Source of the DNA: Anaerobacillus isosaccharinicus
GTDB lineage: Bacteria > Bacillota > Bacilli > Bacillales > Anaerobacillaceae
NCBI RefSeq assembly: GCF_001866075.3
Contig: NZ_CP063356.1
Coordinates: 1,912,164-1,976,163 of the forward strand
Direction: 5' to 3'
Length of the DNA: 64,000 nt
Shown piece by piece: positions 8,751 to 54,437 of the stretch. How positions within the stretch are numbered: the first letter of the stretch is position 1; the number at the start of each line of letters is the position of its first letter. The position numbers were made by a program, and so were the translations under genes. A model generated the notes under the pieces. The model worked only from the letters and a program-made list of their open reading frames with translations. It had not been told where the DNA came from and made no database searches.

Positions 8751-8890
8751 TGTAGAATTTAAAATGCAGAATGTAGAATGGTGAAAAGCAACGCTATGAA
8801 GTTTGTATTTAGCTTGTTTTGATAGGCTTCTAAGCATCAAAGCGTTACTAAAATTAATTCTACATTTTACATTCTAAATTCTACATTATA
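8751..8890. repeat. Microrepeat-arm hairpin element, locus 1
   Basis: The left arm (8751-8780) is built of TGTAGAAT/TTTAAAATG-like units. The right arm (8855-8889) is its near-exact complement, with three mismatches over about 29 bp. The 75-bp middle contains GGCTTCTAAGC, like the GCTTCGAAGC of the other loci. Confidence 0.8.
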
Positions 8891-8934
8891 TAAGGAAGTC
8901 AATAGAGAACGTAGGTACTTATTAACAACTCAAT

Positions 8935-9094
8935 TGTGGATAATGTGGATAACACTTAAAAAACGTGTCGAAATAAGGGAAAGTCATGTTAATAAAAGTT
9001 TTGGGGGTAAATAGGTAGACTTTGTTAATAACTTTTTTTATTCCTTTAGTAGTAAGGTTTTATTTGTGGATAAAGTTGTTGATAATGTGGATAT
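8935..9094. promoter_or_regulatory. DnaA-box cluster
   Basis: The 9-mer TGTGGATAA (complement TTATCCACA, the consensus DnaA box) occurs exactly at 8935-8943, 8944-8952 and 9065-9073. A one-mismatch copy (TGTGGATAT) lies at 9086-9094. Two more exact boxes lie inside the next gene at 9759-9767 and, in the other orientation, at 9781-9789. TGTTAATAA variants lie between. Such density suggests real DnaA binding. Confidence 0.7.
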
Positions 9095-9132
9095 GTCAGA
9101 AAATTTAAGGTTTTTTTCAATAGAGGGAGTTT

Positions 9133-11274
9133 ATGAACATTATAAAAAAATGTATCTTTATCTATTTAATTATTCTGTTAATAACTTGTGGAAAAATAGC
9201 ATTTGCTGATGATACCGATAAAAAACTTACAGTAATCCTAGTTCCTGACTTCTCTTTTCAAGAAGTGAAATGGCTAAATGAGAACGGTCGATTTTTGGAG
9301 CTGTGGAGAACTGGTGGAATGTCTGCAATGAACATTCGTCCAGATGGGCCGTATTCATATTTAAATAATACCGTAACGATAGCATCTGGGGTGCGCAGCT
9401 TAGGTGTTGAAGGTTGGAATGGGTTTATAAAGGGGGAATTTGATGGCGATGTTTTGGCAGAAGTAAACTATCAACAATGGACAGGAGAGGTTGTTGATGA
9501 AGGCGTCATATTTCACCCGTTGTTTCATAAACTTGTGGACAAAAATAAGGAAACGACATACCGCTCCGAAATTGGAATTCTCGGAGAACTGTTAAAGAAT
9601 CACGGAATCGAGAGTTTTGTGATAGGAACAAGTGATTCTGGTCCTGAGAAAATTCGCTATGGTTCTTTAATGACAATGGATCAAGAAGGTAAAGCTAAGG
9701 GCTTACTTTTAGAAGGAACGAAAAAGAGTGAGGGTTCACCTTGGGGAATGGTTATGGATGTGGATAACATTCTTTTAACATTATCCACAATTAACAACAC
9801 ACCAGATCCAACTTTTACTGTGGTTGAATGGGGAGACTTACACAGATTATTTAAGCAAAAAGGAAATATGACATCAGATTACTTTCTAAAACAATATGAG
9901 CAGTCTTTATTTCATTTGGAGTTATTTATTAGTAAATTACTTTTAAATGACTATACACAGAATGTCATGTTGGTATCTCCAATGGTTCATAGTGATGCTT
10001 ATCAAAGTAAGGAAAGGCTTGCCCCATTTTTTTATTGGGAAGATGCAACATTACAGGAGAGTTATTATTTGTTATCCGCGACTACAAGGCAGCCATTTGT
10101 TTTGAGTAATTTAGATATCGTGCCAACGTTATTAGATTTTTACGAAATAAAAGATAAAGGTCAATTCTTTGGAAAGCCGTTACAAAAAATAATAGCTACT
10201 AGTTCAACTTTAGAAGAAGGGTTAAAAACAATTGATTTGATGTTTCTAGTTTTTAAAACGAGAAATGTTATTTTATCTAGTTATATAACTTTATTAGTTT
10301 TATTATTAATCATTACAAGTGTCATTATCATGTTTAGGGAACAAAATGATACTTGGAAAGGTGTTGCAAAAATTCTTCTGATTAGTGGAATTAGTTCACC
10401 ACTATGGTTATTGCTCACACCGTACAGCTTAAATTACATACAGCCAAACATCTATTTACTGTTATTAATTTTTTGTAGCTTCTTAACGGGCTATTTGGTC
10501 GTGAAATTTATCCCTAACCCGATCTTTTTTCTAAGTGTGGTACTTTTTCTCACGATAACGATTGATTTATTTATCGGCAATTATCTGATGCAAAGATCTT
10601 ACTTAGGGTACGACCCAGTTATTGGTGCAAGGTATTATGGAATTGGTAATGAGTATGCAGGCGTTTATTTAATTTCCGGACTCCTTCTTTTAGAGCACTC
10701 AAGCATTAGAAGATGGTTTTTATTATTAATTATTGGTCTAAGTCAACTTTATTTGTTAAGTTCTACTTCGTTGGGAGCAAATGCAGGTGCTACATTAGCG
10801 GCAGGGATAATGTTTGCTTATTTTTCATATCGATGTTTTTTTCCGAAGGCAAACTTTCGTATCTTTTTGCTTATCTTTAGTAGTTTAGGGTTAATTACGT
10901 TAATACTTTTATTTCTAACGCAATTAAATGGCCAAGAGTCGCATATTGGCTATGCATTTTCGAGGTTTTTCCAAGGAGACTTACAGTATATTTTCGATAC
11001 AATTCAGAGAAAGTTAGAAATGAATTGGAAAATCTTTCGTTTTAGCAACTGGACACAGCTTTTTGTGACAACTTATCTTTTGATTGCTTTGTATCTGTGG
11101 CGAAAAAAAGAAATTGTTCGTAGTGGCGTGCGGAGGATTTTAATTCAAACAGGCGTCGTTGCTTCAATAGCGTTATTGTTATTAAATGATTCAGGAGTAG
11201 TAGCCGCAGCAACATCAATGTTTATCATTGTTTGTACAAGTTATTATTGGGCATTAGAAAATTATGAATTATGA
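9133..11274 (+). CDS. Membrane protein with alkaline-phosphatase-like extracellular domain
   Basis: A 713-aa protein with an N-terminal membrane or signal segment (about residues 5-25), a ~350-aa soluble domain and about ten or eleven C-terminal membrane helices (from ~375 onward). The soluble domain starts with strand-Asp LTVILVPDFSF and ends with LSNLDIVPTLLDFYEI, the closing motif of alkaline-phosphatase-superfamily enzymes (sulfatases, phosphoglycerate mutases, lipid phosphoethanolamine transferases). A membrane or envelope polymer substrate is possible, but I cannot assign all metal ligands. It sits between tsaD and the ABC-F gene, which are neighbours in B. subtilis, so it appears to be an extra gene here. 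Two exact DnaA boxes lie within it. Confidence 0.7.
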   Translation: MNIIKKCIFIYLIILLITCGKIAFADDTDKKLTVILVPDFSFQEVKWLNENGRFLELWRTGGMSAMNIRPDGPYSYLNNTVTIASGVRSLGVEGWNGFIKGEFDGDVLAEVNYQQWTGEVVDEGVIFHPLFHKLVDKNKETTYRSEIGILGELLKNHGIESFVIGTSDSGPEKIRYGSLMTMDQEGKAKGLLLEGTKKSEGSPWGMVMDVDNILLTLSTINNTPDPTFTVVEWGDLHRLFKQKGNMTSDYFLKQYEQSLFHLELFISKLLLNDYTQNVMLVSPMVHSDAYQSKERLAPFFYWEDATLQESYYLLSATTRQPFVLSNLDIVPTLLDFYEIKDKGQFFGKPLQKIIATSSTLEEGLKTIDLMFLVFKTRNVILSSYITLLVLLLIITSVIIMFREQNDTWKGVAKILLISGISSPLWLLLTPYSLNYIQPNIYLLLLIFCSFLTGYLVVKFIPNPIFFLSVVLFLTITIDLFIGNYLMQRSYLGYDPVIGARYYGIGNEYAGVYLISGLLLLEHSSIRRWFLLLIIGLSQLYLLSSTSLGANAGATLAAGIMFAYFSYRCFFPKANFRIFLLIFSSLGLITLILLFLTQLNGQESHIGYAFSRFFQGDLQYIFDTIQRKLEMNWKIFRFSNWTQLFVTTYLLIALYLWRKKEIVRSGVRRILIQTGVVASIALLLLNDSGVVAAATSMFIIVCTSYYWALENYEL

Positions 11275-11356
11275 ATTTGGAATTTTGAATTACTCGTAAG
11301 TGTCGCTTCGAAGCAACTACTCACACTAATTCAAAATTCACCATTCATAATTAATT
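11263..11356. repeat. Microrepeat-arm hairpin element, locus 2
   Basis: Arms of a different sequence type (AATTATGAATTTGG... and its complement at 11328-11354) flank a centre with GTCGCTTCGAAGCAAC. The left arm overlaps the stop of the preceding gene and the right arm ends at the ABC-F stop, so the element fills the convergent intergenic gap and may serve as a bidirectional terminator. Confidence 0.82.
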
Positions 11357-54197: not shown

Positions 54198-54301
54198 GGT
54201 CTTTTTCCTTTTTTTCTTCTTGTATAAAAATAGACAAAGGCTACAACACAGCCAATTAATAAAGCATAAACAAACAAACTATCTAGCGCAAACTCAAACA
54301 T
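54194..54301 (-). CDS. EYxxD-type small membrane protein, 35 aa
   Basis: A 35-aa protein read directly from sequence: a short N-terminus with EFALD, one membrane helix ([19 protein letters not shown]) and a basic tail [17 protein letters not shown] lies 8 nt before ATG. It resembles the family of EYxxD-motif small membrane proteins of Bacillaceae, here with Phe for Tyr. Function is unknown. The gene lies between purD and the pur operon terminator, on the opposite strand, so purD transcripts that reach the terminator are antisense to all of it. Confidence 0.75.
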
Positions 54302-54328
54302 AATCTGTACACTCCTTTATTCGTAAAG

Positions 54329-54362
54329 ATAATGCTGACTCACCTCGAGTCAGCATCTTTTC
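54329..54362 (+). terminator. pur operon terminator
   Basis: ATGCTGACTC pairs with GAGTCAGCAT, followed by CTTTTC. It lies 130 bp past the purD stop, beyond the opposite-strand small gene. Confidence 0.8.
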
Positions 54363-54373
54363 TTCAAAAATAT

Positions 54374-54437
54374 AAATCGATAAACTTCGAAGCATCACCT
54401 TCATTAACTCTACACTCTACACTCTAAACTCTAAACT
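54374..54437. repeat. Microrepeat-arm element, locus 9 (right half only)
   Basis: AACTTCGAAGCATCACC followed by ACTCTACACTCTACACTCTA and ACTCTAAACTAA: the centre and right arm of the GAGTGTA arm type, without a matching left arm. It runs into the stop of the DUF2892 gene. Confidence 0.65.

Follow-up and report, generated by a model that had tools for sequence, protein, structure and literature searches.

Short hairpins scattered between the genes of a 64,000-nucleotide stretch of the Anaerobacillus isosaccharinicus genome (contig NZ_CP063356.1, positions 1,912,164 to 1,976,163; the whole stretch is hereinafter called the window) raise a question: how do the two arms of a hairpin come to consist of the same short repeated word when that word changes from locus to locus? 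A sequence-only reading had noticed this agreement and proposed that the arms diversified while pairing was kept, either by selection on structure or by copying between the arms. Comparison of the 5.2 Mb genome that holds the window (G000) with its congeners (G001 to G006) shows that the observation is real and extends to orthologous sites, and that the mechanism is not copying at the level of the individual locus.

The repeat unit is 7 bp, rather than the ~8 bp first read from the window. In 864 kb of G000, AATGTAG and its variants dominate the tandem repeats of period 7; at periods 5, 6, 8, 10 and 12 three occurrences are the most that any unit reaches, and periods 9 and 11 each have common units of their own, unrelated to it. 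A typical element spans ~99 nt, with two 32-nt arms (four heptamers plus GART) flanking a ~35-nt core that often contains GCTTCGAAGC; the commonest core lengths in G000 are 34–37 nt. The heptamers have the form (G/A)A(A/G)TNNN, the arm is closed by the tetramer, and conservation drops past 32 nt of the arm. Counted outside the inner GART tetramer, the heptamers number exactly four in 115 of the 190 arms parsed from four species, three in 31 and five in 14, four being the modal number in each of these species. Parsing by the scheme N-A-(A/G)-T-N-N-(A/T) sorts the heptamers into four dialects: A (GAATGTA), B (GAATTAT, GAATTTT), C (GAGTGTA) and D (GAGTTTT, GAGTGTT). All three vocabularies initially reported for the window (A, B and C) are present there, and D is common in the relatives. 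The commonest units overall are GAATGTA, AAATGTA, GAGTTTT and GAGTGTT, and do not have the G-rich GGGANTN form. The dominant dialect varies by species, and several pure dialects coexist in each genome.

The arrays were called on each side independently, pairing not being required for a call. Left and right arms have the same majority dialect in 85 of 95 pairs, whereas 5000 within-genome permutations average 55.9 such pairs and never exceed 68; as in the P6b stem of the Nostoc trnL intron discussed below, both sides come from one heptamer motif. Mixed arms exist (a left arm that reads A A C C at locus L119; a G001 locus with a B left arm and an A right arm). The array detector also fires on reversed sequence (36 arrays versus 54 forward at 17 bits; 91 versus 208 at 22 bits), so that a call on a single array is permissive, and sites were also counted with paired arrays, of which reversed sequence yields none and the forward sequence of the same stretches 76.

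The comparison of sites covers two blocks of G000 (264 and 120 kb), each set against its syntenic counterparts in G001, G003 and G005; for the first block, G002 and G004 were included as well. Sites were scored under a lenient (any array of at least 21 bits) and a strict (paired arrays only) criterion. Between G000 and G003, arrays are present at 31 sites in both genomes, at 6 in G000 only, at 5 in G003 only and at 112 in neither (p = 2e-21). Paired arrays give 21, 3, 8 and 122, in the same order (p = 2e-16), and an earlier hairpin-based detection, which includes a few chance hairpins, gives 10, 4, 0 and 71 in one block and 11, 3, 6 and 69 in the other. The corresponding counts are 15, 13, 0 and 50 (any array) and 8, 11, 2 and 57 (paired) for G001, and 15, 8, 0 and 60 (any array) and 9, 4, 2 and 68 (paired) for G005. 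In the first block, any array gives 0, 7, 0 and 10 for G002 and 1, 4, 0 and 7 for G004, and no paired-array site is common to G000 and either of these genomes. Intergenic divergence is too high for empty sites to be defined, and several sites scored as absent hold traces of an element. The dialect differs at 23 of the 31 common sites of G000 and G003 (17 of 21 with paired arrays); the 31 G000/G003 combinations are A/D (12), A/A (7), A/C (6), B/D (4), C/B (1) and C/C (1). At the purF-purM junction, G000, G001, G003 and G005 have dialects A, B, D and a variant of A, respectively, and at purH-purD, A, B, D and D. The sites are largely common to the species, and the heptamer dialect differs, in both arms.

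The original proposal thus stands in one part, diversification of the arm words with the match between both arms of a locus retained, within genomes and across species at the same site. Its other part, in which one arm would be copied from its partner or finely compensated for it, is not supported by comparison of cognate and non-cognate arms of the same dialect. This comparison covers 76 of the 85 concordant pairs, in seven genome/dialect groups of at least three pairs; the other nine belong to groups that are smaller or untested and are not included. For dialect A of G000, cognate arms match at 23.61 of 32 positions versus 24.26 for non-cognate arms (z -2.45), and the other larger groups give z of -1.50 (G003 D), -1.29 (G005 D) and -2.24 (G001 B). 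Among the three small groups (6, 3 and 3 pairs), two lean the opposite way (G003 C, z +0.20; G003 A, z +0.79) and the third gives -0.57. Combined over all groups, the likeness of cognate arms is slightly below that of non-cognate arms (Stouffer z -2.67). Near-perfect cognate pairs (at least 28 of 32 positions matching) number 1 in 76, when ~9.7 are expected by hand arithmetic from the non-cognate rates of 0–25% by group. Both results argue against recent arm-to-arm copying, and the depletion suggests that near-perfect palindromes are lost or disfavored.

Arms stay alike within a genome while cores drift. In G000 (33 elements, 436 pairs), the likeness is 0.80 for same-dialect arms, 0.58 for cores and 0.52 for shuffled cores; the best core pair reaches 0.76, and no pair resembles a recent whole-element copy. 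Cores at orthologous loci are weakly above background (45 pairs; permutation p 0.0075–0.015). Neutral divergence is probably near saturation at these distances, so that core similarity is no proof for or against core inheritance; inherited cores as proof of arm rewriting were rejected, the excess similarity being small. Block copying of arms between loci appears weak or absent as well, with p of 0.06 for two-unit runs and 0.27 for three-unit runs in both arms of G000; for two-unit runs, the right arms of G000 alone give 0.005, and G005 gives 0.007.

Elements gain and lose heptamers. Near relA, the sister species G005 and G006 (median amino acid identity of 93% over 12 orthologues) have kept the core and right arm of the element, and the length of the left arm differs by indels; at another junction, G006 has an 11-copy GAGTTTT run where G005 has none (the longest run in the G005 stretch is 4). 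One rRNA spacer of G000 (L278) has one heptamer fewer than its paralogues. Spacers were read at nine of 11 probe matches in G000 and eight of 13 in G003. Seven of those in G000 combine an A-dialect left arm with a core containing CTCAGTGATGC and a right arm that is truncated; one has a full A element, and the copy in the window has B arms around a similar core. In G003, one spacer has B arms around the core CTCAGTGACGC, which is close to the core of the seven G000 spacers, and seven have no arms. This pattern fits an arm switch with the core kept, recombination between operons being an alternative source. The nine G000 spacers (L266, L270, L274, L278, L282, L285, L288, L291 and window 34300) are mosaics with different inserts and can serve as replicates within one genome.

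The hairpin family is real and limited to one genus, the Anaerobacillus group; among named matches of PurM, that of Anaerobacillus alkalilacustris is the best (86% identity). GAATGTAGAAT occurs 285 times in G000 versus 2 for its reversed control, which is not chance. Two congeners have 82 and 60 copies (1 of the control in each), the other four 0–7, and 114 further genomes of the order 0–8 (controls 0–5). GCTTCGAAGC, a palindrome counted once per site, has 74 sites in G000, 53 in G003, 29 in G005, 27 in G006 and 25 in G001 (controls 3, 1, 10, 7 and 3), and 2 each in G004 and G002 (controls 2 and 3). The exact dialect-D hairpin is absent from all 398 Bacillota genomes sampled, a set without other members of the genus; the pattern is strict: in 390 kb of G003 it recovers no more than 3 elements, and in 231 kb of G005 a single one. 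In the element-poor G002, repeats of another kind, with units like TTGGAAAG, are present downstream of relA (L242) and at the very purB-purC junction (L178). Contig C27 of G004 carries purM twice (182468-183505 and 196940-197977, ~14.5 kb apart), with purB, purC and purF, which is either a duplication or an assembly effect.

The elements lie mostly immediately 3' of stop codons. At tandem junctions of G000 (n = 20), the element starts a median of 5.5 nt past the upstream stop, and its end lies a median of 33 nt short of the next start. In the window, three elements separate genes of the purine operon and one is in an rRNA spacer; from their position, these are probably transcribed. The likely role is that of a transcribed 3'-end or intercistronic hairpin.

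Among the known systems, REP and REPIN elements are short dispersed hairpins tied to RAYT transposases. The Anaerobacillus hairpins are likewise short, dispersed and close to genes but consist of heptamer arrays, and no heptamer hairpin lies beside the Y1 transposase genes inspected. Heptamer repeats as such are familiar from Cyanobacteria, where they are called STRR. The closest parallel is the P6b stem of the Nostoc trnL (UAA) intron, with heptamers of Class I (TDNGATT) or Class II (NNTGAGT) and repeated replacement of Class II by Class I (PMC4476775). In both systems, heptamers make up both sides of the stem, one dialect occupies each locus, and the dialect is replaced between lineages with the structure kept; read in another phase, Class II is GAGTNNT, the form of dialect D. 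However, P6b is one cyanobacterial intron locus inside a self-splicing RNA (PMC4476775), whereas the Anaerobacillus hairpins occupy many intergenic loci, have a core in common and use four dialects, with four units as the modal arm. The window loci are intergenic or lie in the rRNA spacer, not in P6b of a trnL group I intron, and the 12 Rfam matches of the window include no intron family.

In Xanthomonas, (GGGANTN)n repeats (Rehm et al. 2015) mostly have four units, with 70 and 75 close inverted cases in two species; they lie on average 28 nt behind the 5' neighboring open reading frame (ORF), are scarce between divergent ORFs and vary greatly between related species (PMC4692102). They resemble the Anaerobacillus hairpins in being dispersed, mostly intergenic, close past the upstream ORF and preferentially of four units but are G-rich, and neither a common core nor a dialect switch at orthologous sites is described in the covered parts of that paper (PMC4692102). 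Direct TAACTGA heptamers are on record for Beggiatoaceae, Cyanobacteria and Bacteroidetes (PMC4679880). The claim that the family has no established name fits for this genus: no description of a heptamer-hairpin family in Anaerobacillus or Bacillaceae was recognized in searches of open-licence papers, nor did the repeat sequences used as queries retrieve a paper there. It needs qualification insofar as a like architecture is in print for Nostoc and Xanthomonas (PMC4476775, PMC4692102).

Among 72,556 plasmids, a dialect D element has matches only in Cyanobacteria: three records, covering 87%, 45% and 31% of the query. In a Gloeocapsopsis dulcis plasmid the match forms a hairpin whose 32-nt arms each comprise four dialect-D heptamers and a tetramer; it differs in its 9-nt loop without GCTTCGAAGC and in its phylum, and reflects either homology or convergence. 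A dialect B element matches eight records spread over several phyla (Parabacteroides, two; Providencia, Rahnella, Nostoc, Borreliella, Serratia and Pseudomonas, one each) over about one arm each, so that B-like heptamers are not confined to Cyanobacteria; a dialect A element matches one record (Piscirickettsia). In the viral contig L324 the arms are of type D and similarly built (30 nt according to the detector, 32 by eye), those of another viral contig, L323, are less regular, and B-type or GAGTAAT-type arms of 19–37 nt occur in four further stretches; no Xanthomonas-type hairpins were found in viral contigs. An invented query gave two partial cyanophage matches among phages. It is doubtful, though conceivable, that four-unit hairpins of GANT type (GAAT, GAGT, GATT or GACT plus three letters) form one class spanning Bacillota, Cyanobacteria and Xanthomonas, with common machinery that would maintain and rewrite them and impose the genome-wide dialect. 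The Providencia rettgeri plasmid (L322) has at 2475-2535 a direct-repeat run of GAATTGT beside genes for an AAA-ATPase and a CopG-family protein, possibly a partition site.

The best explanation, at a probability of roughly 0.45, is turnover of heptamers, filtered by selection for a stable but imperfect hairpin and combined with a genome-wide dialect bias, in long-lived elements. The common sites would be inherited, and tandem slippage would steadily supply heptamer variants; selection on the transcript or on single-stranded DNA would favor a hairpin of ~32 bp, stable yet imperfect, such that a locus with mismatched dialects would be disfavored and a near-perfect palindrome lost or disfavored. 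A genome-wide bias would decide which heptamer spreads, so that most loci of a species would follow one dialect. Several observations weigh against it: pure minority-dialect loci persist in every genome, although a simple genome-wide bias predicts none unless they are lagging relics; orthologous-core similarity only weakly above background leaves room for whole-element replacement; the depletion of near-perfect pairs fits selection and palindrome instability alike; some loci enter the 95 pairs twice (e.g. G003 72740/72786, where the same locus has two left arrays); 45 arrays on the left and 25 on the right lack a partner at the concordance threshold, some of them being weaker opposite-strand readings of called arms; and the sign of a 3'-end role is weak, divergent junctions making up 3 of 44 occupied versus 23 of 127 unoccupied ones.

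Recognition of the heptamers by a trans-acting protein or RNA whose specificity differs by species, with the arrays following as DNA uptake sequences follow their receptor, is an unlikely rival. DNA uptake sequences have another motif and length than the heptamer arrays. Their dialects in Neisseriaceae likewise differ genome-wide between species (PMC3630211), and each Anaerobacillus species has a dominant dialect, with arms that mostly look like independent noisy draws around the genome consensus (20 G000 arm pairs share at least three consecutive units versus 16.8 expected). However, several pure dialects occur in one genome, recognition alone leaves the agreement of both arms at a locus unexplained, and no candidate protein was found in a search that covered Y1 transposases and reverse transcriptases only. 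Still less probable is that each dialect is a mobile subfamily resembling miniature inverted-repeat transposable elements (MITEs), copies of the active subfamily replacing older ones at the same sites. The modal ~99-nt unit, the recurrence of the same few dialects in several species and the weak orthology of the cores would fit such replacement, but burst copies of a MITE are alike over their whole length, unlike these elements with their similar arms and drifted cores, and sites new relative to G000 are few (0 of 78 G001 and 0 of 83 G005 junctions with single arrays; 2 and 2 with paired arrays). Moreover, no heptamer-armed hairpin was found in 12 inspected Y1 transposase loci (2–3.7 kb, ~1.5 kb on each side; among 40 matches listed) or in 12 reverse transcriptase loci (2–3.7 kb; among 32 matches), and a link to these genes was rejected; G005, 80% complete, has the elements and no Y1 match. 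Rewriting of an arm from its partner, by hairpin extension or quasi-palindrome correction, or base-by-base compensation, would yield both arms in one dialect but is rendered quite improbable by the cognate comparison and the scarcity of near-perfect pairs. Finally, the four-unit preference of the G-rich Xanthomonas heptamers has been linked to G-quadruplexes, as has been proposed for G-rich heptamers of Nostoc (PMC4692102). Here the same preference holds for arms such as those of GAATGTA, GAATTAT and GAGTTTT, which lack G-tracts; this argues against G-quadruplexes as its general reason and makes them a scarcely credible explanation in Anaerobacillus. Two of the inspected Y1 loci hold other hairpins, of GGGACAGG type.

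In the window itself (Table 1), seven of the nine hairpins initially reported are clear (8751, 11263, 17793, 34381, 44163, 49540 and 52811), the one at 20243 is decayed, and that at 54374 is a half element. Each locus was folded against 200 dinucleotide shuffles, and the fold of the seven clear loci is far superior to that of the shuffles (z -4.2 to -8.1; 0 of 200 shuffles as good). Both arms use one vocabulary at six of the seven according to the array detector; at 34381 the right arm is uncalled, and the agreement is by eye. Three of the nine loci contain an exact GCTTCGAAGC. The decayed element folded whole gives z -2.15 (7 of 200 shuffles as good) and without its right arm -0.87; the half element gives -3.4 (4 of 200), the signal coming from the core alone. 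Element 2 sits between two convergent ORFs, and the same junction in G003 has GAGTTTT arms; in G003, the site of element 3 has GAGTTAA-type arms and the junction of element 4 dialect-A arms.

Table 1. Hairpin elements of the window (window positions; z, fold score relative to dinucleotide shuffles).
Element	Position	Strand	Dialect	Location	Arms and core	Fold z
1	8748..8888	.	A (GAATGTA)		arms ~8749-8780, 8857-8887; unusually long core	-8.11
2	11259..11356	.	B (GAATTAT/GAATTTT)		GCTTCGAAGC in core at 11305	-7.39
3	17786..17886	.	A	begins at upstream ORF stop codon		-6.98
4, decayed	20246..20350	.	A		clear left array 20248-20282, poor right arm	
5	34380..34484	.	B	16S-23S rRNA spacer, between tRNA-Ala and 23S		-5.01
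6	44160..44260	.	C (GAGTGTA)	purB-purC, immediately past purB stop		-4.20
7	49537..49645	.	A	purF-purM	GCTTCGAAGC in core at 49583	-7.07
8	52810..52912	.	A	purH-purD	GCTTCGAAGC in core at 52856	-7.48
9, half	54386..54438	.	C		core CTTCGAAGC; right array 54404-54438; left arm missing	

Other features lie nearby. By eye, a terminator-like hairpin precedes element 1, and an exact GCTTCGAAGC outside the listed elements is located at 1027-1036, downstream of a 5S rRNA gene. At 61300-61395 there are two adjoining strong hairpins, one with GGTGTCAGACACC flanked by TGTCCACGG, and similar stretches are present elsewhere in the genus (L125 9611 and L128 4772, among others). A second dispersed imperfect inverted repeat, with AACGGACATACGTTCCGCTATT-like arms, is found at window 19127-19205, L128 18647-18839 and L154 13654-13786. 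The window also has three purine riboswitches and one thiamine pyrophosphate riboswitch (28279-28379, 30474-30575, 40867-40969 and 16833-16943, respectively), and L120 has at 11440-14828 two near-identical tandem ORFs of 499 amino acids, transposase-like by eye.

What was a single-locus, two-class oddity of the Nostoc trnL intron thus becomes a genome-wide, multi-species system with countable dialect switches at orthologous sites. Comparison of the hairpins distinguishes the sharing of a dialect by two arms from their base-by-base co-evolution: applied to loci that mix dialects, a covariation test would be expected to support the structure, even though cognate arms have no pairing advantage over random arms of the same dialect. 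Hairpins at many of the same places in related species, with the words changed in both arms, offer a way to ask what rewrites and what maintains such repeats.

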